This document shows positions 3,173 to 13,797 of a stretch of DNA of 14,263 bases, in pieces; the stretch's first letter is position 1, and each line of letters begins with the position of its first letter. The translations under genes were made by a program, and so were the position numbers. Under the pieces are notes generated by a model. That model saw nothing but the letters and a program-made list of their open reading frames with translations. It was not told where the DNA came from and searched no databases. Source of the stretch: Deltaproteobacteria bacterium (GTDB taxonomy: Bacteria; Desulfobacterota; DSM-4660; Desulfatiglandales; Desulfatiglandaceae); assembly GCA_013349725.1 (NCBI GenBank), contig DUZB01000050.1:1-14263 (forward strand). Direction: 5' to 3'.

Positions 3173-3200
3173 TTGCAAGCCTTTTGTGTGTGATGATAAT
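3173..3200 (+). promoter_or_regulatory. candidate sigma-70 promoter of the MmgE/PrpD operon
   Basis: TTGCAA at 3173-3178 (4/6 to TTGACA) and GATAAT at 3195-3200 (5/6 to TATAAT) are separated by 16 bp. Transcription would start near 3207, giving a leader of about 98 nt to the ATG at 3305. It is the best -35/-10 pair seen in the 3120-3304 gap. Confidence 0.35.
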
Positions 3201-3304
3201 TGCTTTTAATGGGGAATTGTGCAATAGGAATTTGCAGGGCAGTAAATGTCTTTATCGTTCTATCCTATTCACCAGAGACGTATATGATGCTGGAGGACAT
3301 TATC

Positions 3305-4648
3305 ATGACCATAGCAGATCAAATTGCCGAATTCGTAGCCGAAACGACCTTTGATGATATCCCGGCGGAGACGGTTACTTTTGTAAAGCATCTGTCTTCC
3401 AAGATTATTGCCGCCATGCTTACCGGTTCCACCACGCGGGCGGGGATGAAGACCGCGGAGTATGTAAGATCGAAGCAGGGCCCGGCAGACGTGGGTGTGA
3501 TCGGGGCAGGGTTTCTTTGCGAGCTCGAGGATGCGGTCTTTATTAACGGCATCACTTCCCATGCCGCGGAACTGGAAGATGACCAGTTTCCTTCGGCAAC
3601 CAGCGATATTACCGTCTTTCCCGTCATATTTCCCATGGCCGCAAAATTAGGGCTCACGGGCAAAGAGGTCATCACTGCCTCGGCCCTGGGTCTGGAGATT
3701 ATGAATCGGGTAGGCATGTTCCCCCTGTCTTTTAAAGGCTATACGGATCTTCCTTTTTATGGGGTAATTGGTGCAGCAGTTACTGCGGGAAAGGCCCTTA
3801 AACTCAATCCCGAACAACTGAAACAGGCTATGGGGATCTCCATGGGAAGGGCAAGCGGTTATATTGTCAACTTCGGGAGTGACGCTCACTACATCGAATC
3901 TGCCGGAGCGTGCAGGGATGGGCTGATGGCCGCCTTATTAGCCCAGAAAGGGTTGACCGGCAACCCGAACATCGAGAAATGGCTGGTGGATCTCTATGCA
4001 GGGTCCGAGCATGCAATAGATACCCAAAAAATCGTGCAGGGTCTTGGCGGTTCCGAATGGCGGGTGCATGAGATATGGATCAAAAAATATCCCTGCTGTT
4101 TCCTGACCCACCGTCATATAGATATGATGCTGGATATCCTGGCTGAACAGAAAGTCTCTTATGGGGATATAGAACGGGTCGGGATTGACGTGGGACCGGT
4201 GGATTATACGTGCAATCGCCCACAACCAAAAGATCCCGAGGACGCGAGATTCAGTTTTCAACATATCATGGCCGCGTTAATGCTCGATGGCGATATTGAC
4301 AGCTATCACTTTACTCCTGAAACACTCTCCGACAATCGATTCCGGAATGCATGGCCAAGAGTATCGGTAACCAACCACCCGGACTGGCCCGCCGAATTCA
4401 TGAGTGGCGTGGCCCGTATAACCGTCTCGTTGAAAAACGGGGAACAGGTTGTTAAAGAAAAAAAACAGGCCCTGGGCGGGCCACAGTTCCCACTGACGCA
4501 GGACCAGTTCAAAGAACTTTACCATAAGTACACTAAAAGCGTTCTGACCCCAAAGGAGATGGAAGAAACATGGCAGGTCCTTTCCAATCTTGAAAAAGTG
4601 GAGGACATGACCGGTTTCCTGAAAAAAATTGTCTTTCCCGGGAAATAG
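3305..4648 (+). CDS. MmgE/PrpD family protein
   Basis: This 447-residue protein matches the MmgE/PrpD family along its full length, which is the usual 440-490. The start is ATG 3305, set by a GGAGG at 3292-3296 (8 nt spacing); the open frame begins earlier at 3200 but those residues do not look like family sequence. Family features: N-terminal helical domain (TIADQIAEFVAETTFDDIPAETV), the active-site region INGITSHAAELEDD with H86 and D92/D93, FPVIFPMAAKLGLTGKEVITASALGLEI, and KKYPCCFLTHRHIDMM near residues 257-272. Known members include 2-methylcitrate dehydratase and cis-aconitate decarboxylase, but many homologues in anaerobes have no defined substrate. No methylcitrate synthase or lyase gene is nearby, so PrpD function proper is not supported. 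It is the first gene of a four-gene cluster, 9 bp ahead of the next. Confidence 0.88.
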   Translation: MTIADQIAEFVAETTFDDIPAETVTFVKHLSSKIIAAMLTGSTTRAGMKTAEYVRSKQGPADVGVIGAGFLCELEDAVFINGITSHAAELEDDQFPSATSDITVFPVIFPMAAKLGLTGKEVITASALGLEIMNRVGMFPLSFKGYTDLPFYGVIGAAVTAGKALKLNPEQLKQAMGISMGRASGYIVNFGSDAHYIESAGACRDGLMAALLAQKGLTGNPNIEKWLVDLYAGSEHAIDTQKIVQGLGGSEWRVHEIWIKKYPCCFLTHRHIDMMLDILAEQKVSYGDIERVGIDVGPVDYTCNRPQPKDPEDARFSFQHIMAALMLDGDIDSYHFTPETLSDNRFRNAWPRVSVTNHPDWPAEFMSGVARITVSLKNGEQVVKEKKQALGGPQFPLTQDQFKELYHKYTKSVLTPKEMEETWQVLSNLEKVEDMTGFLKKIVFPGK

Positions 4649-4657
4649 GTTGGAGCA

Positions 4658-5776
4658 GTGAATCAGCATACCAAAAAGAGATGGCGTTTTCTTGAGGTCG
4701 ATTGGCTGACCTATGCCCGGACGGCCGTGTTCCGGCCCACCCTCTTAAAGGCGGTAAGCGAACGTATTGTGCCTGCCACATTGAGCTTCTGCAGCTTTCC
4801 CAGGCCGAGCGTTATCCTCAATTATTTTAATGATCCGGACAAGGACATCGACCTCCACTTCTGCAGGGAGAGAGATATCCCTGTCTACCGTGTTATTTCG
4901 AGCGGGGGTCCTATTTTCGGGGATACGGGATATACCTTCGCCTTTATCCATGCAGAAAGGGGCAGCCATGGCATACCATCCACCGTAGAAGAGATGTTTG
5001 CCAAAACGCTTTCGGGCATTGCCCATGGCCTGAGTGAACGCTTTGACATTGAGGTCCGGTTCAGGCCCCTAAATGACCTGGAAGCCAGAGCTTCGGACGG
5101 CGTCTGGCGTAAGATCGGCCCCTCCTCCTGTTTTTTTGACAAGCAGGCCATTCAAATGGGCTCAGGCATTCAGATACACCGGCCCGATCTCGATCTGATG
5201 GCAACCATCATTACCCCACCCCCGGAAAAATTCCATGATAAACAGGCAAAAAGCATTCAGGAAAGGGTGACATGTCTGGATGATATCGTGGGCAGGAAAG
5301 TGGAGATAAATGAAGTCAAGCAGGTCTATGTTGCTCAGATAGAAAAAACATTCGGCGTGGAGCTGAGCCACGGGGAATTGAGCCGGCAGGAACTGGATTA
5401 TTTCAAGGAATTCGAGGAGGAATATACCTCTGAGGGTTTTCTTATGGACCGGTCCGAAAAACGCCTTGATCCACTTCCCCGGGGGACCCGGCGCCGGCAA
5501 ATGCAGTACAAGATCCCGGGTGGACCGTTGATAAGAATCATATGCTTTATCAAGGGCAGCAGGATATGGCGCATCATCATTACCGGATCTATTCATGCCA
5601 GCCCTCTTCAGCCCTCTTCTCCCGTGCATGAGATGGAGAATGCCCTTATGGAAACACCCATTGATGGCAAGGTTATACGGGACAGGCTGAACCACGTGAT
5701 GAATAGACCCAATTATGAAATGCCGGGGGTCATGCCGGAAGAACTGGCCGAAAAAATCATGAGGTGCTGTCAGTGA
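4658..5776 (+). CDS. lipoate-protein ligase A-like protein (BPL/LPL fold with C-terminal domain)
   Basis: The 372-residue product begins at GTG 4658, 9 bp after the MmgE/PrpD stop; GGAG lies unusually close (2 nt), so translation may depend on coupling. Residues 8-100 follow the LplA catalytic domain: WRFLEVD, PATLSFCSFPRPSVIL, then RVISSGGPIFGDTGY at 78-92, matching the RRxSGGGAVxHDxGN motif. WRKIGPSSCF at 150-159 aligns with the KxxGxA segment, with K152 as the likely ligase lysine, followed by DLDLMATIITPPPEKF. Residues about 280-345 (GGPLIRIICFIKG...IITGSIHASPLQP...ENAL) resemble the bacterial LplA C-terminal accessory domain. The motifs are divergent: RVIS replaces RR and GP replaces the third Gly region. 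It may therefore transfer lipoate, octanoate or another acyl group to a carrier, or be a non-ligase paralogue. No lipoyl-domain protein is encoded in this window. Confidence 0.75.
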   Translation: MNQHTKKRWRFLEVDWLTYARTAVFRPTLLKAVSERIVPATLSFCSFPRPSVILNYFNDPDKDIDLHFCRERDIPVYRVISSGGPIFGDTGYTFAFIHAERGSHGIPSTVEEMFAKTLSGIAHGLSERFDIEVRFRPLNDLEARASDGVWRKIGPSSCFFDKQAIQMGSGIQIHRPDLDLMATIITPPPEKFHDKQAKSIQERVTCLDDIVGRKVEINEVKQVYVAQIEKTFGVELSHGELSRQELDYFKEFEEEYTSEGFLMDRSEKRLDPLPRGTRRRQMQYKIPGGPLIRIICFIKGSRIWRIIITGSIHASPLQPSSPVHEMENALMETPIDGKVIRDRLNHVMNRPNYEMPGVMPEELAEKIMRCCQ

Positions 5777-5898
5777 AATGTGGTTCCATCGCATCCTATG
5801 CAAATTGCCTGGTAACCCATTTTAGATTCATCAAATCCATTAATGCCAGGGTTTTTGAATAAGATACGTTCCATCTCGTTTGAAAAAGAGGGAAACGA

Positions 5899-7116
5899 AT
5901 GGGTAAAAAGAGATTGCCGGAAGGTCTCAGGACACAGTTAGACTATTTATACGGGCTTGATTTTTATCGCAAAAAAATGGATGAGGCGGGCATTGTCCCC
6001 GGGGATATCCTCTCTTTAAAAGACTTTGAAGGGTTCCCATTTACCACACACGGGGAATTTGTGAAAGAGATGGACCGGAAAAATCCTCCTTACGGTTCTT
6101 TCTATCCTCCCGGGGTGGTTCGAATAAATTTGACCCCATCGGGAGATCATCTGTTGCCCATCTTTCATACTGCCGGAGACCTGGAGTGTATGCACCAGGT
6201 CTGTCATCGATCGCTGGAGGCGGCAGGGGTTACTCGTAACGATATTTGCGCCGTTACCTTTGGCTACCATCTCTTCATTGCAGGCCTGTTCTATCAGGGC
6301 CAGCTTGAGACCTACGGCGCCAAGGTGATACCCGTAGGGCCCGGTGAGACGGACAGGGCAGTGGACATCATCAACCGACACGGCGTTACGGTGCTCGTGG
6401 CCAACCCGAGCTTTGCTCTTAAACTGGGCTCCTCGGGCATGAACAGGATCAAAATCCTCTTTGCCGGCGGCGAACCCTTGACCTCCGTTTCGGGCTATAA
6501 GGACAGAATCCGTCAGGCCTTGGGCCGGGACCTGGTTATCATAGACTCCTACAGCATGAGCGAATGTATTCCCATTGCCCGTAACTGCGCCATGGAAACA
6601 GGGCTTCATATAATGGATGAATTTGTCTATGCCGAGATCATAGATCCCGAAACAGGGAAAAATCTTGAAAATGGGCGCATGGGTGAACTGGTGTTGACAC
6701 ACATAAAAAAGGAAGCCCAGCCGCTCCTTCGATACCGGACCGGTGATCTTGCGGAATTGGTGGAAACTCCCTGCAATTGCGGCAGGCACGTGACAATGCC
6801 CAGGGGGATATCCGGTCGAACCGGTGAGATGCTCAAGGTGAAGGGGGTCAAACTTTATCCGTCGCAGATCAAAACCATTATCAATGAGCACGGAACCGGG
6901 ACCGGTTTCAGGCTGACAATCCGTTCAGAAAAAGGGGTCGACAGACTGATCCTGACCCTTGAGGATATACCGGGAGCACGGCCAAAACTTAAAAATCTCC
7001 GTCATGCCCTCAGGAAGGCTACGCTTCTGAATTTTGATGAAATAGCGTTCCGGGGCCACCTGGAGGAAGGCCCGATGGTTTCGGATGAACGGGACGTTCT
7101 TTCCTCTACCCTCTAA
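5899..7116 (+). CDS. phenylacetate-CoA ligase (PaaK)-like adenylate-forming protein, divergent
   Basis: ATG 5899 follows a GAGGG ribosome-binding site about 6 nt upstream. The 405 residues follow the PaaK layout: LDFYRKKMDEAGIVPGDILSLKDFEGFPFTTH at 20-51, Rossmann-like middle, FAGGEPLT at 188-195, YSMSE at 218-222 (A5-like), YRTGDL at 279-284, CNCGR at 292-296 and GRTGEMLKVKGVKLYPSQI at 306-324. Two canonical elements are missing. The phosphate-binding SSGTTGKP loop reads NLTPSGDHLLP at 77-87, and the C-terminal lysine region expected near the end contains no lysine (HLEEGPMVSDERDVL). PaaK-type ligases join an aromatic acid to CoA via an acyl-adenylate; here activity is uncertain. It is part of the cluster from 3305, after a 122-bp gap without a clear terminator, and 19 bp before the next gene. 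Confidence 0.8.
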   Translation: MGKKRLPEGLRTQLDYLYGLDFYRKKMDEAGIVPGDILSLKDFEGFPFTTHGEFVKEMDRKNPPYGSFYPPGVVRINLTPSGDHLLPIFHTAGDLECMHQVCHRSLEAAGVTRNDICAVTFGYHLFIAGLFYQGQLETYGAKVIPVGPGETDRAVDIINRHGVTVLVANPSFALKLGSSGMNRIKILFAGGEPLTSVSGYKDRIRQALGRDLVIIDSYSMSECIPIARNCAMETGLHIMDEFVYAEIIDPETGKNLENGRMGELVLTHIKKEAQPLLRYRTGDLAELVETPCNCGRHVTMPRGISGRTGEMLKVKGVKLYPSQIKTIINEHGTGTGFRLTIRSEKGVDRLILTLEDIPGARPKLKNLRHALRKATLLNFDEIAFRGHLEEGPMVSDERDVLSSTL

Positions 7117-7135
7117 CAGAGTGGATCAAAAGTGT

Positions 7136-8071
7136 ATGGATAACAAAAGCAAAAAAGTCGGCTTTATTGGTCTCGGGGCCATGGGTTTTGGTATGGCCTG
7201 CAACATTGTCAAATCAGGGGTTCCCACAACCGTTTACGATATCGATGAGAAAAAAGTCCGTGCGGTTACGGACAGGGGCGCTATGGCCTCTGAATCGATA
7301 GCATTACTCGCCCGCAATAGCGACGTGGTGATAACCATTCTTCCCGGTGAAGGCGCTGTAGAAAAGGTGTATTTGGGACAAAGCGGCCTTGTTGAGGATG
7401 GCAAGAAAGGCAGCATCCTGATAGATATGGGGACAACTTCAACAGGGCTTCTCGATAAAATAAGTAAACAGGTTGAAAACAAGGGGATAAAGCTGTTGGG
7501 AGCGCCTGTGAGCGGTGGGGCCATCGGCGCCGAGGAGGCCACGCTTACTATCATGGTTGGTGGTGATAAAGATGCCTTTGATAAGTGTCAAGGCATTTTA
7601 CAGGCCATGGGGAAGAAAGTGGTCTATACAGGGCCCCTGGGGACTGCAACCGTGGTCAAACTGGTAAATAACCTTCTTCTCTTCGTAAAATGTGCGGCCA
7701 TTGCCGAAGGATTTGTTCTGGGAGTCAAAGCAGGGGTATCCACCGATGTCCTTTACGATCTGATTACCTCCAGCAGTGGAACAGACTGGGCCCTTGAGAC
7801 GATCTTTTCCAGGTACGCCTTTCGCGGCAAATTCACACCGCCCAGCTTTGCGCTGGCAGGCGTGTTGAAGGACTTGGGTCTTGCCCGGAAAATGGCAAAA
7901 GAACTGGATGTTTCCACCGTGCTGGCGGACCTCAGCTATGAGCTCTTTGAAAAGGCGGTTGATGCTGGAAAAGGGGAAATGGATTTTTCCGCCATTCTAT
8001 CTCTTCTTGAAGAGCAGGCAGGGGTGAAAGTCCGGTTTGGCGACCGAGAAGAGTCGAATTCTGAAAGTTGA
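7136..8071 (+). CDS. NAD(P)-dependent oxidoreductase, 3-hydroxyisobutyrate dehydrogenase family
   Basis: This 311-residue protein has every landmark of the beta-hydroxyacid dehydrogenase family. These are the dinucleotide motif KVGFIGLGAMGFGMACNI (GLGAMG at 12-17), SDVVITILP, ILIDMGTTS, the substrate-binding GAPVSGG at 122-128, catalytic lysine K175 in VVKLVNNLL, and the C-terminal KDLGLARKMAKEL (K245). Family enzymes oxidise 3-hydroxyisobutyrate or reduce tartronate or succinate semialdehydes in the cytoplasm. D35 in VYDIDEKK, at the end of the second beta strand, suggests preference for NAD, which is inference. ATG 7136 is chosen because homology begins there; in-frame GTG 7121 and ATG 7085 overlap the preceding gene and add no family sequence. 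No strong ribosome-binding site precedes 7136, so it may be coupled to the PaaK-like gene 19 bp upstream. Last gene of the + cluster. Confidence 0.9.
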   Translation: MDNKSKKVGFIGLGAMGFGMACNIVKSGVPTTVYDIDEKKVRAVTDRGAMASESIALLARNSDVVITILPGEGAVEKVYLGQSGLVEDGKKGSILIDMGTTSTGLLDKISKQVENKGIKLLGAPVSGGAIGAEEATLTIMVGGDKDAFDKCQGILQAMGKKVVYTGPLGTATVVKLVNNLLLFVKCAAIAEGFVLGVKAGVSTDVLYDLITSSSGTDWALETIFSRYAFRGKFTPPSFALAGVLKDLGLARKMAKELDVSTVLADLSYELFEKAVDAGKGEMDFSAILSLLEEQAGVKVRFGDREESNSES

Positions 8072-8134: not shown

Positions 8135-9469
8135 TCACGATCCGTTCTTTCTGATGCCTCCTTTTTTCATCTTGTACCTGAGTACCCGTTCACTGATGCC
8201 CAAGCGTTCTGCTGCCCTGGTCTGAATCCAATCGCTCTTTTCCAGGGCCGAAAGGATCATTTCCTGCTCCACTGCTTCCAGTCTCTCAGCAAGGGAACCT
8301 TCGGTGGCGGTCTGAAAATGACGAATCTCTTGAGGAAGGTCTCCCGGTGTAATGGAGCGTCCCCTTGTTAGCGTGACGGTTCGTTGTACAATGTGCTCCA
8401 GTTCTCGCACATTCCCCGGAAACGGGTATTTTATGAGCATATCCACCGCCTCGGGGGTGAAATGCAAGGGGGTAGCGGCATAACGATCCAGAAAAAAGTC
8501 TAAGAATGCGGATATCTCCTGACGACGGTGCCGCAGAGGAGGGACCTCGATCTCAAGAACCCTGATCCGATAGAACAGGTCTTCCCTGAACTGCCCTTCA
8601 TCGACCATTTTTTTGAGGTTGCGGTTGGTGGCGGCGATCAGACGGACGTCCACATCGATCTCCTCTTCGCTGCCGACGCGGCTGATTTTCCCTTCCTGAA
8701 CTGCCCTTAGAAGTTTGGGTTGAAGGGAGAGCGGCATCTCACCGATCTCGTCCAGCATCAACGAGCCCCCATGAGCCAGTTCAAACCGGCCTTTCCGGTT
8801 GTTCGTGGCCCCGGTGAAGGCGCCCTTCACGTGTCCAAACAGCTCGCTTTCAAAGAGGTTTTCGGGGATTGCCGCGCAGTTTACCACAATAAACGGCGCG
8901 TCGCCTCTGGGGCTTAAAAGGTGAATGAGATGTGCCACCAGTTGTTTTCCTGTCCCGGTTTCGCCCGCCACAAGAACCGGCCACTGACTTTGGGCTACCC
9001 GCCGCACCAGAGAAAGGACCTCTTTCATGGCCCGGCTTTCCGCCATGATCCTCAAGGGAAGGGGGACTTCTTCCATGGCTGCTTCAACCACCGCCACATC
9101 TTCATCTACCGCCGCCAGGTCTTCCATCTGCTGAATCTTTTTCAGGAGAACAGAGAGATCCACCGGTTTTTCCAGGAACTCAGAGGCGCCCAGCTTTAGG
9201 GCCGTCACCGCCATGTCCACATCCCCGAACGCCGTAATCATGATAACCCGTGCCGCAGGGTTTATGGCCTTCATTTTTTCCAGCACCTCATCCCCTCTGA
9301 GCCCGGGCATTCGGTGGTCTAACAGAACCAGATGGACCGGTTCCCGTTCAAAGAGCTTCAGGGCTTCCGGACCGTCCCGGGCCGCCAAAGTCTGGTAGCC
9401 CTGTTTGTCCAAAAAGCCCTTCAAAAGCTCCCTCTGGGTCGGATCATCATCTACAACGAGAATCTTCAT
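8135..9469 (-). CDS. sigma-54-dependent NtrC-family response regulator
   Basis: 444 residues in three domains. Receiver 1-115: acidic pocket DDD 7-9, phospho-acceptor D51 in LVLLDHRMPG, T79, K101. AAA+ domain about 138-375: Walker A GETGTGKQ at 169-176, sigma-54 contact loop GAFTGA at 216-221, Walker B SLMLDE, FREDLFYRIRVLEIEVPPLRHR, and FPGNVRELEH near 350-359. Fis-type DNA-binding helix-turn-helix at about 416-436 (TRAAERLGISERVLRYKMKK). The GAFTGA loop is intact, so it should activate sigma-54 promoters when phosphorylated. It starts at ATG 9469 behind GAGG (7 nt) and lies 38 bp after the histidine kinase, its obvious partner. It ends 63 bp from the convergent oxidoreductase gene. A sigma-54 promoter with an upstream palindrome at the head of this same strand (13689-13797) is its most likely target. 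Confidence 0.95.
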   Translation of the reverse strand: MKILVVDDDPTQRELLKGFLDKQGYQTLAARDGPEALKLFEREPVHLVLLDHRMPGLRGDEVLEKMKAINPAARVIMITAFGDVDMAVTALKLGASEFLEKPVDLSVLLKKIQQMEDLAAVDEDVAVVEAAMEEVPLPLRIMAESRAMKEVLSLVRRVAQSQWPVLVAGETGTGKQLVAHLIHLLSPRGDAPFIVVNCAAIPENLFESELFGHVKGAFTGATNNRKGRFELAHGGSLMLDEIGEMPLSLQPKLLRAVQEGKISRVGSEEEIDVDVRLIAATNRNLKKMVDEGQFREDLFYRIRVLEIEVPPLRHRRQEISAFLDFFLDRYAATPLHFTPEAVDMLIKYPFPGNVRELEHIVQRTVTLTRGRSITPGDLPQEIRHFQTATEGSLAERLEAVEQEMILSALEKSDWIQTRAAERLGISERVLRYKMKKGGIRKNGS

Positions 9470-9495
9470 GGGACGACCTCATATGAAACTTTGTT

Positions 9496-9530
9496 TCCAG
9501 TTTCCGGTTACCGGTTGCCAGTTGTCGGTT
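9496..9530. repeat. five tandem copies of a degenerate 7-bp repeat
   Basis: On the + strand the units are TCCAGTT, TCCGGTT, ACCGGTT, GCCAGTT and GTCGGTT, consensus NCCRGTT; on the - strand the consensus is AACYGGN. The kinase gene's stop codon (9508-9510) lies inside the array, so the last residues of the kinase (EPTTGNR) are encoded by repeat units and the rest forms most of the kinase-regulator gap. Confidence 0.75.
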
Positions 9531-11124
9531 CTCTCGTTCCCGCCGGCCTTTTTGCAGATTTGGGTGCGGGGAGGCAGACCGAAATTTCCACCATTCCCGT
9601 TTCCGGGACACTGACCTCCATATGCCCCCCGTGGGCCTCCACGATTCTTCGGGAGATGGTCAGTCCCAGACCGGTCCCGTCCGCCTTGGTAGTAAAATAG
9701 GGATCAAAAATACGATCCGCTTCTTCCGGTTTCAAGTCAAACCCGGCGTTTCTGACTCTGAAACAGGCATCCTCACCTTCCTTTTCCACCGTCAGTCGGA
9801 TAGAACCGCCCTCGGGCTGTGCCTCAATGGCATTTTTCAGGAGATTTTCCGCTACCTGCCCGAGAAGATCGGGATCACCTGACATCGATTCTTGGAAAGT
9901 GATCCGCCGCGACACGTAAATGCCTAACTCCCGGGCATGGGCAGAATAGAGATCGAGCATATCTTCCGCCAGCAGATCGAGACGCATGGCCCTTTTTGAA
10001 GCCCTCTGGGGACGTGCATATCTCAACAGGCCCTCCACACTGGCATTGGCGCGTTTGACGGAATCCAGCATCAGATCGACCAGATGCCGGTGGTCGTCCG
10101 GACTTTCTTCCCCCTCCATCCGGAGCCTTTGAAGACCCATCCCCAGGGCATTCAGAGGGTTCCGGATTTCGTGGGCAATCGCTGCTGCAGCCCGGCCTAA
10201 CGAGGCGTTTTCCCGCTCGGAAGAGATCTGCCTTTCAAACTGCTGGACCTGCATCAGGTGTGCGGCCTGGTAACGGTGAAGGAGCAGCGAAAGGATAACC
10301 CCCAGGGATGCAAGCGCTGCGCTGAAAAGAAAGAAATCGCGCCACAAACGTCCGATAGCCAGATGAAGATACCCCGCATCCAGTGCCACAGTAAGTTCTT
10401 TCCCCTCCATGGGCAAACGGGCTTCGGCAACCCTGAGATCGCCTTTATCTATAAAGGTTACGGCAGGCTCTCCCGGAAACCCTTTTCGGTCCGCAGAGGG
10501 TGTTTTCAGTTCCACATAACTCACACGGGGAATTCCTGCAATGGTCCTGATCACATTCTCCAGACCCAGGTGCTCCTGCATGATCCGGATCTGGGTGTCC
10601 GTGATCCCAACGGTTACGCACCCCGGACCCGCCTCTTTCGCCAACGAGAAGAGGTAGAGATGTTCCACCGGGTCGTGTTCGAGTTTGGAGGCCGGCATGC
10701 AGCCTGAGGGAGGTTTTCCCAGCCATCCGGTCGGACCCTCAACAATTTTTTCTCCCACCCTTTGTATGCTTATCCCTACCAGTCCAGCCTCTTTGGAAAA
10801 GGCGGCCAGCTCTTCCTGGTTAAAGGGCTCCACCTTATCCAGATAGTCCACAAAACGGGCCGTGTTTCCCAGAAAGGCCTCCAGAATGTCCTCTGCCGCT
10901 CTTTTGGAAAGGACACTTCCACGGGCACTGAGTTGGACCACCTCCGCCACCAGGACCGCATGTTCCCGGACATGTTCCAGGAAGTCTTTCCTGGCCTGCT
11001 GGACCTGCCACAGGAAATAGGCCATTACGGCACAGAACAGAAAGGCAAACACAAACAGATTGGCCATCCAGAGGGGGAACCTGCGTTTCCTATTTTCCAC
11101 GGCCTTTGCCACCTCCCCGGCCAC
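9508..11124 (-). CDS. membrane-bound sensor histidine kinase (NtrB/ZraS-like transmitter)
   Basis: The 538-residue protein has membrane segments at about 21-40 and 264-283 enclosing a roughly 220-residue periplasmic sensor region. This region has no named domain I can recognise; it holds two cysteines, C142 and C169. The cytoplasmic transmitter has the H box AIAHEIRNPLNALGMGL with H318, N box LLKNAIEA around N431, F box FDPYFTTK and G box DGTGLGLTIS at 482-490. This is the class that pairs with sigma-54 regulators. The GTG start at 11124 is preceded by GAGGA (7 nt) and overlaps the end of the preceding gene by 35 bp, indicating translational coupling. The C-terminus runs into a 7-bp tandem repeat, so the last residues are probably not functional. 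It presumably phosphorylates the regulator at 8135-9469 in response to an envelope signal. Confidence 0.92.
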   Translation of the reverse strand: MAGEVAKAVENRKRRFPLWMANLFVFAFLFCAVMAYFLWQVQQARKDFLEHVREHAVLVAEVVQLSARGSVLSKRAAEDILEAFLGNTARFVDYLDKVEPFNQEELAAFSKEAGLVGISIQRVGEKIVEGPTGWLGKPPSGCMPASKLEHDPVEHLYLFSLAKEAGPGCVTVGITDTQIRIMQEHLGLENVIRTIAGIPRVSYVELKTPSADRKGFPGEPAVTFIDKGDLRVAEARLPMEGKELTVALDAGYLHLAIGRLWRDFFLFSAALASLGVILSLLLHRYQAAHLMQVQQFERQISSERENASLGRAAAAIAHEIRNPLNALGMGLQRLRMEGEESPDDHRHLVDLMLDSVKRANASVEGLLRYARPQRASKRAMRLDLLAEDMLDLYSAHARELGIYVSRRITFQESMSGDPDLLGQVAENLLKNAIEAQPEGGSIRLTVEKEGEDACFRVRNAGFDLKPEEADRIFDPYFTTKADGTGLGLTISRRIVEAHGGHMEVSVPETGMVEISVCLPAPKSAKRPAGTREPTTGNR

Positions 11125-11497
11125 CGTACTGTCCTCGGCTCTTCCCGATACGCCGTCTTACCCCTGTCCGGTCCTGTCCATACCCCGTCTGTCCCAGGGC
11201 CTGCATATGCGTGGCGTTCAGCGCCCCTGTCTCTTGGCTATACCCCCCCCATACCCTGATCACATTGCCGGGCAGCAGGGATTTCGACAGACGGTCCGGG
11301 GGTATGGTCACTTCTACATTTTTCCTTCCATTTTCTCTGTTGTCCGGATTGTCCCCTTCATCCATGAGCTCCACGGAGATTTTTCCTGTGTCCCGGTCCA
11401 CGGAGAGGACGCGGCCTACAAAAAGATCCTCTGCTGACGCAGGAGAGACCAGGCCGTTTGCCGCGGCTAAGATCAGAAAGAATAGGATAGCCCGCAT
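11090..11497 (-). CDS. exported small protein, OB-fold-like, with Arg/Gly-rich tail
   Basis: 135 residues. A clear signal peptide (MRAILFFLILAAANGLVSPASA, cleavage after about residue 22) is followed by EDLFVGRVLSVDRDTGKISVELMD and VEVTIPPDRLSKSLLPGNVIRVWGG. This beta-strand-rich pattern resembles small exported OB-fold proteins. The final 30 residues are basic and Gly-rich (VRRRIGKSRGQYGGRGGGKGRGK). Its start overlaps the end of the beta-barrel gene by 25 bp and its end overlaps the kinase by 35 bp. No strong ribosome-binding site precedes ATG 11497, which fits coupling. Function unknown. The gene order suggests it is an envelope partner of the outer-membrane protein or a ligand or accessory of the kinase; this is inference. 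Confidence 0.72.
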   Translation of the reverse strand: MRAILFFLILAAANGLVSPASAEDLFVGRVLSVDRDTGKISVELMDEGDNPDNRENGRKNVEVTIPPDRLSKSLLPGNVIRVWGGYSQETGALNATHMQALGQTGYGQDRTGVRRRIGKSRGQYGGRGGGKGRGK

Positions 11498-12588
11498 TGA
11501 ATTACCGTCTGGGTATATGATTCATAATCGAGGGGGGCGTCTCCGGACTTCCACCCCAATTGACCGAAAAATTCCATATCTCCCCAAAACCTGCTGACCT
11601 GCAATCCGGCCGACCAACTGTAGTTGATACGTCTGACGCTGGTTATATTTTCCGGCACACTGTAGTATTGCGTCCGGTACCATGTTGCCTCAAACCCCAC
11701 CAGCCATAGCTCCGCCGGGGCCCAGGATAGGGCTGCTCCGGCCTGAATCTCTCTGAAAGATTCCATATCCAGAGAAGAATTCAGGTTTCCATATGCCCCG
11801 TACACCCGGCCGGTCAGGGTGGGCAGGATAAAGATATCGAGATCAACGCCCGTCACCATCAGGCGATTGTCCCGAGGGGGATAGGATTTGTTGAACTCAC
11901 TGTTCCCTTTGCCCTGATCCGACGGAGGTCCAGCCCATACCCACTCAGACCGGGTTGCCGCGGAAGAATTTTTTCCTCCGCCTCCGCCACCTCCTCCTTT
12001 GCCACCTCCTCCGCCATTATCCCCGTTTCTCCCCTGCCCTTTGCCGGAGAAGGGCTTTGCCCAGTTCAGATAGCTGAGCCATCGGAATGTCTGCTCAAAG
12101 CCCAACGTCAGTCTATTGGAGAGAATCCAGTCCGCTGCAACGCCGGCCATGGCCTCGTTGCGCTCGTCGGCTTCTATGAGCGCGTCACGGTATGCGGCCA
12201 CTTCTCCAATCAGAGAGGGCAGAAACCTTCCCTCTGCCAGGACATAAGAAAGTGCTGTCCCTGCCTGCAGACGGTAGTTGTCTCCCACGCTCCAGTAGTC
12301 CTGGTACCGTCCTTCCGCGGACAGATGCAGGGCCAGATCCTGGGACAGAACGAAGGAGTGCTGCGCTCCAAGGCCATAGACGGAAAATCCTGAGCCATCG
12401 GACGGATCAGTCAGGGCCGGATTGGAATCGTACCCCGCTGTCAGTTCAGCCAACAAGTCCACGGCTTCGGAAGGGGGTACCATCATAAAGAAACAGAAAA
12501 AGGCTGCGACCCCAATGCCTGAAAGGAAATAGTAATACGGCCTGCGCCGAGCAGGCCGTACGCGACGTACAGAGATCTTTTCCATCAT
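11473..12588 (-). CDS. outer-membrane beta-barrel protein with poly-Gly loop
   Basis: 371 residues. A basic N-terminus (RRVRPARRRP) and hydrophobic segment at about 20-40 ending PPSEA form a long signal peptide. The mature part begins VDLLAELTAGYDSNPAL, a start common in outer-membrane proteins. Alternating polar/aromatic strands follow (HLSAEGRYQDYWSVG, RLTLGFEQTFRWLSY, LVGFEATWYRTQYY, INYSWSAGLQVSRFW). The last residue is Phe in LSYSF, the BAM-recognised C-terminal signature. Between strands, residues 181-232 form a low-complexity insertion containing a near-continuous Gly run (about 192-205) flanked by Lys and Asn, probably an extracellular or periplasmic loop. The start has two adjacent ATGs (12588, 12585) without a good ribosome-binding site, and a strong hairpin lies in codons 10-18. 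I cannot name a family; a transport or anchoring role for the neighbouring secreted proteins is inference. Confidence 0.8.
   Translation of the reverse strand: MMEKISVRRVRPARRRPYYYFLSGIGVAAFFCFFMMVPPSEAVDLLAELTAGYDSNPALTDPSDGSGFSVYGLGAQHSFVLSQDLALHLSAEGRYQDYWSVGDNYRLQAGTALSYVLAEGRFLPSLIGEVAAYRDALIEADERNEAMAGVAADWILSNRLTLGFEQTFRWLSYLNWAKPFSGKGQGRNGDNGGGGGKGGGGGGGGKNSSAATRSEWVWAGPPSDQGKGNSEFNKSYPPRDNRLMVTGVDLDIFILPTLTGRVYGAYGNLNSSLDMESFREIQAGAALSWAPAELWLVGFEATWYRTQYYSVPENITSVRRINYSWSAGLQVSRFWGDMEFFGQLGWKSGDAPLDYESYTQTVIQCGLSYSF
12536..12560 (-). promoter_or_regulatory. perfect 10-bp-stem hairpin inside the start of the beta-barrel gene
   Basis: Arms TACGGCCTGC (12536-12545) and GCAGGCCGTA (12551-12560) pair perfectly around a 5-nt loop. 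It lies about 28 nt into the coding sequence, within reach of an initiating ribosome, and there is no U-tract downstream. It could limit translation initiation; it might also be a by-product of Arg/Pro codons. Confidence 0.5.
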
Positions 12589-12610
12589 AACTGATATACA
12601 CCCTGTAGCA

Positions 12611-12642
12611 GAAAAAGAAAAGGCCCCTCCCGGGGACCCTTT
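12611..12642 (-). terminator. intrinsic terminator-like hairpin
   Basis: On the - strand AAAGG-GT-CCCC pairs with GGGG-CCTTT around a GGGA loop (12642 to 12619), with a 2-nt bulge. It is followed by a T-rich run (TTCTTTTTC to 12611). It lies 44 bp after the end of the 12686-13123 gene and 23 bp before the beta-barrel gene. It would end or attenuate transcription from the upstream sigma-54 promoter and so lower expression of the downstream four genes relative to the two secreted proteins. Confidence 0.6.
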
Positions 12643-12685
12643 CCTGTTGCTTCAGATAAAAGTGTTGCGGTTATGGATGGTCACA

Positions 12686-13123
12686 TTATTCCGGTCGCGG
12701 TCCGTGTTTGCGCCACAGGGGCACACCCGTTTCAGGGTCACGTAAAAGAACCGTATCCTCTCCGACCGTTATGCTCGTTGCGATATTGCGCAGTTCATCA
12801 TTGTATTCGACCGCATATCCGCTCACGATAACGGTGTCACCCGCGACCGGCCGAATCACGCCTAATTCATCCCAGTAGCGCACGGGACCGATCCCGTAAA
12901 TGGTGACGTTTTCATCTGTGGTCGCAATAACCATTCCATCTCCCTGACATTCAGTCACATCACCCTGATAGGTAAAAGGCGTTCCGAGGGTAATGTCATG
13001 GATGGGACCGGTTCCGTTCCCGGCGCCATTGCCGCCGCCTTTCCCGTTTCCGGCAAGGCCCAGTCCTACACTCAAAAAGAACACCAACAATACGATCACG
13101 CTGCCTGTCAACATTTTTTTCAT
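12686..13123 (-). CDS. exported protein with Gly/Asn-rich N-terminus and beta-rich core
   Basis: 145 residues. Signal peptide MKKMLTGSVIVLLVFFLSVGLGLAG, then a mature N-terminus NGKGGGNGAGNGTG. A beta-rich core follows: TPFTYQGDVTECQGDGMVIATTDENVTIYGIGPVRYWDELGVIRPVAGDTVIVSGYAVEY, which looks like a small OB-fold-type exported domain (short strand, GD turn, DTVxVxGY). It then reads RNIATSITVGEDTVLLRDPETGVPLWR. The single mature cysteine sits in ECQGDG. ATG 13123 has GGAG 9 nt upstream. It follows the Gly/Ser-rich gene by 57 bp in the same direction and is followed by a terminator-like hairpin, so these two are probably the most highly expressed genes of the locus. Function unknown. Confidence 0.78.
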   Translation of the reverse strand: MKKMLTGSVIVLLVFFLSVGLGLAGNGKGGGNGAGNGTGPIHDITLGTPFTYQGDVTECQGDGMVIATTDENVTIYGIGPVRYWDELGVIRPVAGDTVIVSGYAVEYNDELRNIATSITVGEDTVLLRDPETGVPLWRKHGPRPE

Positions 13124-13180
13124 GATTCTCTTCTCCTTTTTCTTGGTTTGTAGGTTTTAAAAAAATCGTTCCATGAACTC

Positions 13181-13561
13181 CTAATTTGTCTGGTTTTTGC
13201 GTCCTTTTCCTTTGGACCCGCTGCCGTCACAATCGCCGGACCCTGAACCCTTCTTTGCGCCATACCCTGTTCCATCCTGGGGCCTTGGCGTAGATCCGCT
13301 CCCATCCTGGACGCCGTATCCGTTTCTGCTGCCGGAATTATCCCCTCCCTTTGATCCATTTCCTCCACTGCCGCTGCCGTCCCGGTTTCCACCGCGGGCA
13401 AGGACGACTGGCATCTGATCACAAACCTCTATGATTCCCGCCTTTTGGGAATTCCGATCGCCATCACCCGGAATCCCTGCCCAGCCTGCACCTTGATTGA
13501 TCCCGAAAAGCGCTGCCAGACCCAAACCTGCCAAAACCGCTATTTTTTTTCCCGTAACCAT
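13181..13561 (-). CDS. secreted Gly/Ser-rich low-complexity protein
   Basis: 126 residues from ATG 13561, chosen because AAAGGAGAAAG directly precedes it and the signal peptide (VTGKKIAVLAGLGLAALFGINQGAGWAG) then starts correctly; ATG 13609 would add 16 polar residues in front. After a short segment (IPGDGDRNSQKAGIIEVCDQMPVVLARGGN) the rest is low complexity. DGSGS occurs three times, with related QDGTGYG, GGNGSKGG and GSGSKGKGRK, and the protein ends QTN. Two cysteines, one before and one inside the repeats. No catalytic features. Probably an extracellular or cell-surface structural protein. It is the first gene behind the sigma-54 promoter and so the most direct output of the regulator. A mirror-image frame on the + strand (13197-13418) is Pro-rich and is a shadow. 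Confidence 0.75.
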   Translation of the reverse strand: MVTGKKIAVLAGLGLAALFGINQGAGWAGIPGDGDRNSQKAGIIEVCDQMPVVLARGGNRDGSGSGGNGSKGGDNSGSRNGYGVQDGSGSTPRPQDGTGYGAKKGSGSGDCDGSGSKGKGRKNQTN

Positions 13562-13580
13562 CTTTCTCCTTTCATTTGCT

Positions 13581-13596
13581 GCCGCTGTCAGGCGGC
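13581..13596 (-). promoter_or_regulatory. short leader hairpin before the first gene
   Basis: GCCGC-TGTCAG-GCGGC forms a perfect 5-bp stem with a 6-nt loop in the predicted 117-nt leader, about 10 nt upstream of the Shine-Dalgarno of the gene starting at 13561. It could stabilise the mRNA or modulate ribosome access; a chance repeat is possible. Confidence 0.3.
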
Positions 13597-13688
13597 TGTT
13601 GTTTCCCATAAAACCTTGGTAAAATTTAAACCAGAACAGTCCCTATCCCATCACCCAGCCGTCACCGGCCGTGTTTTCCAGTTATGAA

Positions 13689-13704
13689 AGCAAGACACAT
13701 GCCA
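13689..13704 (-). promoter_or_regulatory. sigma-54 (-24/-12) promoter
   Basis: Reverse strand from 13704 to 13689 reads TGGCATGTGTCTTGCT, against consensus TGGCACG-N4-TTGCW: a single mismatch, with exact GG-N10-GC spacing (GG 13703-13702, GC 13691-13690). Transcription should start near 13678, leaving a leader of about 117 nt before ATG 13561. It faces the operon that ends with a sigma-54-activating regulator. Confidence 0.85.
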
Positions 13705-13722
13705 TAAAAAGTATCGTAAATA

Positions 13723-13735
13723 TATCAGAATGTTA
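13723..13735 (+). promoter_or_regulatory. candidate IHF binding site
   Basis: TATCAGAATGTTA matches the IHF consensus WATCAANNNNTTR at all but one fixed position and lies in an AT-rich stretch between the upstream palindrome and the sigma-54 promoter, about 45-57 bp upstream of the predicted start. This is where IHF usually bends DNA at such promoters. The motif is degenerate, so chance is possible. Confidence 0.4.
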
Positions 13736-13757
13736 TATTGTATGGACCGTACATGGG

Positions 13758-13797
13758 ATTCGACAAAGAGCGACCGGACTCGACAATTTTGTCGAGT
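13758..13797 (-). promoter_or_regulatory. upstream activator sequence: palindrome plus half-site
   Basis: ACTCGACAA-TT-TTGTCGAGT at 13778-13797 is a perfect 9-bp inverted repeat with a 2-bp centre. A matching half-site ATTCGACAA begins at 13758, exactly 20 bp before the palindrome's own left arm, that is two helical turns, although its right arm is degenerate. The palindrome centre lies about 110 bp upstream of the predicted sigma-54 start, the usual place for an NtrC-family dimer pair. The natural candidate to bind it is the regulator at 8135-9469. No other TCGACAA palindrome was noticed in the window. Confidence 0.7.

Follow-up and report, generated by a model that had tools for sequence, protein, structure and literature searches.

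The locus considered here raises the question of what is served by a unit that places small exported proteins, an outer-membrane barrel, a membrane histidine kinase and its regulator behind a single sigma-54 promoter. The window, i.e. the whole analyzed stretch of 14,263 nucleotides (nt; contig DUZB01000050.1, from a deltaproteobacterial genome), carries six open reading frames on the minus strand in the region 8135–13797, referred to below as genes 1 to 6 in the direction of transcription. All six were found where an original prediction, made from the letters of the DNA, had placed them. It had also held the last gene to be the activator of the first promoter, and the system to sense an envelope state and to produce Gly-rich surface material. 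The answer developed below is that a smaller core of these genes, together with an operator, is what is conserved, and that it probably forms a dedicated, self-amplifying envelope-response system.

Operator, Promoter and Regulator

The predicted sigma-54 promoter (−24/−12) was located at 13689–13704 on the minus strand, where TGGCATGTGTCTTGCT matches the pattern TGGCAYRNNNNTTGCW with zero mismatches; it is the sole exact match in the window, against a chance mean of 0.01. Its predicted upstream activating site (UAS), which the original prediction did not name although its end coordinate coincides with the edge of the site, is the 20-base-pair palindrome ACTCGACAAAATTGTCGAGT at 13778–13797, with arms that are 100% complementary and an end lying 73 nt ahead of the sigma-54 box. 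A second half-site, TTGTCGA, is located at 13760–13766 (minus strand), 29 nt past the start of the palindrome core.

These elements were followed in 27 genome loci that contain gene-2 relatives and in 40 stretches around matches from a phylum sample of 395 genomes, 59 of which gave matches; removal of the duplicates L095 (of L009) and L097 (of L010) gave 66 loci, including the window, with 871,293 bases. The exact form TCGAC-N6-GTCGA occurs 27 times in these bases, where about one occurrence would be expected (an estimate from 4^-10), and 26 of the 27 sites lie at most 800 nt upstream of gene 2. Of the 26 operator loci, 18 also have the second half-site, at UAS+26 to +30, and in 14 of the 26 a sigma-54 box with zero or one mismatch and an intact GG/GC follows at UAS+76 to +99. 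As judged by eye, ten further operator loci have TGGCAY-N5-TTG followed by A, G or T instead of C, and two have no good box (L119, where none is seen, and L008, whose box at 126 nt has two mismatches).

A scan for the composite site (the exact palindrome, 58–86 nt and a TGGC-N9-GC box, a pattern blind to boxes without GC) in 30 genomes selected for holding gene-2 relatives gave 15 matches in 15 genomes, 13 of them at the unit, and one match for the reversed control. The other two lie elsewhere, one of them before an OmpA-like lipoprotein (G043 contig C5, L133) and the other, in G012, apparently accidental. A wide regulon marked by the operator is unsupported by the composite pattern, apart from the match in G043 and the unexplained one in G012. 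A blind scan of the 395 genomes for the palindrome plus half-site, with the reversed pattern as control, gave 22 matches in 21 genomes and zero for the control. Eight of the 22 stand at units holding gene 2, kinase and regulator, and nine of the remaining 14 adjoin a kinase–regulator pair of the family with other cargo, which brings the total to 17; the kinase of one of these nine, L168, is a distant one (282 bits vs 462–578). Three of the off-pair matches (L157 at a contig end, L162 and L169) belong to genomes that carry the sensor elsewhere, those of L162 and L169 being associated with an ethylbenzene-dehydrogenase-domain protein. In L169 (7292–8548) the operator-like site stands before such a protein with Gly/Asp/Met repeats, and the sensor is on the same contig (G306).

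The regulator expected to read this operator, gene 6 (8135–9469, minus strand), is an NtrC-type sigma-54 activator, as had been proposed: the receiver (PF00072), sigma-54 AAA+ (PF00158) and Fis-type helix-turn-helix (PF02954) domains score above the Pfam cut-offs, the GAFTGA motif is intact (ESELFGHVKGAFTGA in the sequence), and the recognition helix reads GISERVLRYKM. In a census in which the 395 genomes were searched with a profile of the kinase periplasmic region (E value 1e-8), 33 of the 35 readable regulators have G[IL]SERVLRYK at their end, and the other two deviate from it at a single position. Regulators with the GISERVLRYK helix are almost always accompanied by the TCGAC palindrome. 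The Nitrospirae regulators found beside gene-2 relatives instead have GISLRSLQYK or GISLRTLQYK, and L015, L021 and L024 have no TCGAC site; L129, from the phylum sample, follows the same pattern, likewise with no TCGAC site. Among the exceptions, four loci (L020, L180, L181 and L184) have the usual helix and one-mismatch sites only. The conserved operator, its location before sigma-54 boxes, the near-single occurrence of the composite site per genome and the covariation of the helix together make the last gene the most likely activator of the first promoter, in line with the original prediction, and an action of gene 6 on the operator, with autoregulation of its own operon, is very probable from these sequence comparisons. 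Outside the TCGAC group, TGCAA-type palindromes or repeats were seen ahead of the OB-fold gene in L003, L015 and L025, which suggests that these relatives use another class of regulator, with an operator of its own.

The Conserved Core and Its Cargo

The census located the sensor in 41 of the 395 genomes, as a single copy in each, and 40 of the 41 loci were read, G350 being left out as a partial match. The regulator adjoins the kinase in 39 of the 40 (the 40th being cut by a contig end), gene 4 adjoins it in 36 (the exceptions being L171, L178, L179 and L183), and an exact operator lies within approximately 4 kb in 28. Gene 2, by comparison, was present in 17 of the 40 loci, or 15 of the 31 whose sequence extends 2.5 kb or more upstream of the kinase, and gene 3 in 18 (two of them on the other strand), or 12 of the same 31, with some of these absences being due to contig ends; DUF4405 was present in four of the 40. 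Among 26 gene-4 loci picked via gene 2, the kinase is found next to gene 4 in 24 cases, the regulator comes next in 23, and 18 loci include the barrel, so that co-conservation of the genes, checked by comparison of neighborhoods, was borne out in related loci. Genes 2 and 3 as a mark of all members were rejected on the census counts of 17 and 18 out of 40. By these counts, the conserved system is gene 4 together with the kinase, the regulator and the operator, the OB-fold and barrel genes are interchangeable cargo, and the six-gene set of the original prediction is one cargo version.

Other cargo was selected by eye among the neighboring genes, of which a part was scanned with Pfam. PF13801 (Metal_resist) was matched in L168 (1.6e-13), L170 (9.2e-10) and L180 (2.7e-10), OmpA in L133, L170 and L184 (all below 1e-26), and PepSY in a protein located before gene 4 of L160 (3.1e-8), only there among the picked neighbors scanned. 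DUF2202 was identified in L156, L163 and L165, with DUF2202-like proteins recognized by sequence, outside the Pfam scan, in L164 and L166. DUF1104 was found in L161, scored below the cut-off for the first gene of L103 and that of L107, and gave no match in a similar protein of L165. The families among this cargo (PF13801, PepSY, OmpA-like and others) are presumably linked to periplasmic stress, metals or envelope anchoring, and it is from this link that the reading as an envelope response is drawn.

The Genes of the Window

Genes 3, 4 and 5 overlap, while 38 nt separate gene 5 from gene 6 and 97 nt separate gene 2 from gene 3. Into the latter junction falls an intrinsic terminator hairpin (12616–12644, minus strand; −18.0 kcal/mol, then TTTTCTGCT). 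A junction hairpin of −11 kcal/mol or lower with a T-run occurs in 10 of 18 loci vs 16 of 400 random 200-nt fragments drawn from these loci, the junction fragments differing in length; an 11th locus has a weak hairpin and seven have none. Because of this terminator, genes 1–2 and genes 3–6 may be separately transcribed blocks, and the hairpin would limit the transcript that passes to genes 3–6. The claim of one unit is qualified by this internal terminator.

The three small proteins (genes 1, 2 and 4) open with a signal-peptide-like segment, as judged by eye, which agrees with their predicted export, and Gly-rich runs are present in all four exported proteins. Gene 1 (13181–13561 as an open reading frame, minus strand) encodes an exported Ser/Gly-rich protein with the motif PQDGTGYGAKKGSG; its frame is open to 13609, and AAGGAG stands before the ATG at 13561. 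Counterparts with the same or a similar motif were found in L001, L002, L018, L093 and L094, and the Pfam scan of gene 1 gave no match. Gene 3 (11473–12588, minus strand) is predicted to form a 14-strand outer-membrane barrel, which upholds the barrel originally proposed, and in the model a long Gly-rich insert of 66 residues (174–239) lies between strands 7 and 8. Gene 4 (11090–11497, minus strand) encodes a small exported protein with the C-terminal motif TGVRRRIGKSRG and a Gly/Arg tail. An OB fold is possible for it, the weak profile matches including the OB-fold chains uS17c (E value 0.029) and ORF34P2 (E value 0.094) among other folds.

Gene 2 (12686–13123, minus strand) is a predicted OB-fold protein, exported and with a Gly-rich N-terminal arm: its AlphaFold2 model has a predicted local distance difference test score averaging 91–96 in ten-residue blocks over residues 51 to 130, and Foldseek returns YgiW (1nnx) as the first match (E value 1.2e-3). 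It has 68 relatives and a motif of its own, YGIGPxRYW...LRDxxTGxPLWRG. The Pfam and NCBIfam models gave no convincing match, a single-sequence search of the PDB gave plastocyanin only (E value 0.9), PDB profile searches with genes 2 and 3 gave nothing at an E value of 1, and tblastn against a plasmid collection gave no match. Four relatives carry a precomputed assignment to PF26390, presumably a MamS/MamX-related family. The gene-2 relatives are also found in other surroundings. The OB-fold gene is clustered with a DUF4405-type membrane protein in L015 (10364–11257), L023 (12784–13371) and L025 (9063–9887), from a Nitrospirae genome, Thermodesulfatator and a Desulfofervidaceae bacterium, respectively, and L015 and L025 have a further OB-type protein. 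In L010 (4178–7679) it is followed by DUF2202 and, by eye, TolC-like and CusB-like genes, with a one-mismatch operator upstream, and distant relatives in L124 (7291–7776), L125 (5354–5809) and L127 (7556–8011) stand, also by eye, among thioredoxin-like, CcdA-like and permease-like genes.

Gene 5 (9508–11124, minus strand) is a membrane histidine kinase with HisKA and HATPase_c domains and a periplasmic sensor at residues ~40–262; its start is probably the GTG at 11100, overlapping the end of gene 4, as inferred from the start of the L002 kinase. The large unassigned periplasmic region was thus correctly described: no Pfam family is assigned to residues 40–262, which are touched by three matches only (E values 0.07–0.3), and a search of the PDB with the sensor profile gave no chain at an E value of 1. 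In 24 kinase relatives scanned whole, non-kinase families appeared only as scattered weak matches, positions not shown, among them DUF4381 in three (best E value 0.002). A Cys pair is present in 15 of the 24 kinases, seven have no Cys at all and two have other patterns; the pair as an essential redox switch is unsupported, nine of the 24 lacking it. Beside the unit, on the plus strand of the window (3200–8071), stand genes that by eye are MmgE/PrpD-like, lipoate-ligase-like, phenylacetate-CoA-ligase-like and 3-hydroxyisobutyrate-dehydrogenase-like, and their four proteins have no match above 40 bits in 27 related loci.

Proposed Function and Alternative Explanations

The production of Gly-rich surface material, with gene 1 as an exported structural protein and the barrel as its exit, would suit the Gly content of gene 1 (25% in a 142-residue reading), the Gly-rich runs of all four exported proteins and a terminator layout that favors genes 1–2. 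It is nevertheless very unlikely: DUF1104-like proteins stand in the place of gene 1 in L103, L107 and L109 (L103 and L107 being scanned, with scores below cut-off), merely 35–38 nt separate the box from gene 2 in L006 and L023, and the unit encodes no secretion partner for a barrel that is modeled as a CymA/OmpG-like channel. The Gly-rich stretches largely form tails, heads or a loop attached to folded proteins (the predicted OB fold of gene 2, possibly another in gene 4, and the channel), and each of genes 2 and 3 was seen in fewer than half of the 40 sensor loci (some cut by contig ends), which leaves this part of the original prediction weak. The same barrel could instead be an oligosaccharide or organic-acid channel for substrate uptake, with an Ato-type kinase sensing the substrate and genes 1, 2 and 4 serving as periplasmic binding or docking parts. 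The barrel model does fit CymA, which we take to be a cyclodextrin channel, and OmpG better than other barrels, and the best NCBIfam scores include AtoS and AtoC, both below cut-off. This explanation is unlikely, as the barrel was seen at 18 of the 40 sensor loci (12 of the 31 having sufficient upstream sequence) and ZraP-family, PepSY and OmpA-like cargo would not suit uptake. In the loci inspected by eye, no transporter recurs beside the core; L171 and L183 have a phosphoglucomutase-like gene opposite it, and a gidA-like gene lies upstream of it in L172 and in L181.

Unlikely, too, is a system for metal or redox homeostasis, in which MamS/MamX-related OB-fold proteins and membrane haem proteins (DUF4405) would handle iron or another metal and the kinase would sense metal or redox state, possibly via its Cys pair. 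DUF4405-like genes are found near the OB-fold gene in L007, L008, L015, L023, L025, L108 and L110 (by Pfam in L015 and L023), L010 adds its DUF2202 and, by eye, TolC-like and CusB-like neighbors, sister loci carry Metal_resist cargo, the published model of MamS is likewise YgiW-like (PMC3905215), and the Cys pair is present in the majority of the kinases. Against it, DUF4405 occurs in only four of the 40 sensor loci and nowhere in the unit of the window, the Cys pair is dispensable, and the haem role of DUF4405 is our own presumption.

A dedicated, self-amplifying envelope-response system is therefore weighed against a set of observations that do not fit it well. The full GG/GC box is missing in 12 of the 26 operator loci. 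Five of the 22 blind matches are not beside a kinase–regulator pair of the family, and for two of these, L159 (at a lipoprotein) and L167 (located within a gene), the genome gave no match to the sensor. When one mismatch is allowed, the site by itself does not outnumber its reversed control in several of the 14 genomes scanned (e.g. G001, G003 and G005), so that the operator carries weight only when exact and in its proper context, and no exact site accompanies the usual helix of L183 or the near-identical one of L126. Twelve of the 40 census loci have no exact operator, seven of them with short upstream sequence at contig ends, three with one-mismatch sites and two (L171 and L183) with neither. 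PF13801 was found in only two of the 40 census loci (plus L168, outside the census, with neighbors scanned in part), and the stress reading is drawn by association, a tested function having been looked up for few of the cargo families. With these points taken into account, a Zra/Dbf-like envelope response remains the probable explanation, and envelope or periplasmic stress as its job is about equally probable. The predicted sensing of an envelope state is plausible from the swapped ZraP-family, PepSY and OmpA-like cargo. That gene 4 is the partner of the kinase, as its position suggests, is evenly balanced. Slightly more doubtful, and offered tentatively, is a new class of three-component sigma-54 envelope sensor, in which gene 4 (OB-fold, with TGVRxR and a Gly/Arg tail) would be the obligate periplasmic partner of the kinase and the trio would form one chassis across Desulfobacterota, with cargo swapped behind a near-constant operator.

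In the proposed mechanism, the kinase would read a periplasmic condition via its ~220-residue sensor domain, with gene 4 probably a third component in the periplasm, binding or gating the kinase. Gene 6 would bind TCGAC-N6-GTCGA about 90 nt before the sigma-54 promoter and, once phosphorylated, open that promoter, activating its own operon and little else in most genomes. The small exported proteins of genes 1–2 would be made first and most strongly, and the terminator after gene 2 would pass only some transcripts to the channel, gene 4, the kinase and the regulator, giving a moderate positive feedback. The cargo would then buffer the envelope, here with periplasmic OB-fold and Gly-rich proteins and a 14-strand channel in the outer membrane, and in sister loci with ZraP-family, PepSY, OmpA-like or DUF2202 proteins.

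Envelope-stress signaling is known mainly from enterobacteria. If the proposal is true, anaerobic sulfate reducers and their relatives would have a common single-operon envelope response, present in about one in ten genomes (41 of 395), with a readable operator and a candidate third component, and uncharacterized families (gene 2, gene 4, DUF2202, DUF1104-like and Gly-rich proteins) would share a link to one function. With its operator and promoter, the system can be tested directly by reporter.

Comparison with Known Systems

The original prediction could match this gene set to no described system, and a search of the open-licence literature likewise found no description of it. Sigma-54 frequently serves the cell exterior (PMC4641369). 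This work on Desulfovibrio vulgaris was considered as prior cover and rejected, its main text containing neither operator words nor "outer membrane" and its section 7 describing no such unit. Among single components, the 14-strand barrel predicted for gene 3 resembles CymA and OmpG, although at 7–11% identity and with a 66-residue Gly-rich insert and a different genomic setting. Gene 2, whose model has YgiW as its first match, recalls the OB-fold proteins YgiW/VisP (BOF) and MamS/MamX, but has its own motif and no convincing family match.

The nearest described design is ZraPSR, the zinc-responsive system of enterobacteria. ZraP is presumably a PF13801 member, and PF13801 cargo is what L168, L170 and L180 carry. 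As here, a membrane kinase is combined with an NtrC-type regulator, which in ZraPSR drives, from sigma-54 promoters, both its own genes and the gene of a periplasmic protein, ZraR of Salmonella acting on the divergent promoters of zraSR and zraP (PMC4987338). Unlike ZraPSR, the present locus has an extra conserved gene 4 as well as OB-fold, Gly-rich and barrel genes, no ZraP (PF13801/LTXXQ) among its six proteins, and scores of 171.5 for the kinase vs a ZraS cut-off of 479 and of 368.1 for the regulator vs a ZraR cut-off of 760. In DbfQRS of Vibrio cholerae, a PepSY protein binds the sensory domain of the kinase and the system answers outer-membrane stress; a small periplasmic protein beside a kinase–regulator pair and positive autoregulation (PMC12714742), the latter predicted here, are common to both, and the PepSY protein before gene 4 of L160 adds to the likeness. 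Pfam found no PepSY among the six window proteins, where the candidate third component is gene 4 instead, and the regulator is of the sigma-54 NtrC type. VC1639 of the same species, part of an envelope-stress two-component system, controls a YgiW-type OB-fold protein (PMC5636140); going by the gene order, VC1639 is probably DbfS itself. A further periplasmic third component is PlrP (PMC13001219). The equivalog cut-offs of the XrtA/PEP-CTERM proteins PrsK and PrsR were missed as well (84.2 vs 300 and 375.5 vs 502.6 bits). As judged from its encoded parts, the present system works like ZraPSR, DbfQRS and PlrP but, since the cut-offs for ZraS, ZraR, AtoS, AtoC, PrsK and PrsR are all missed, is a system of its own rather than a member of these.

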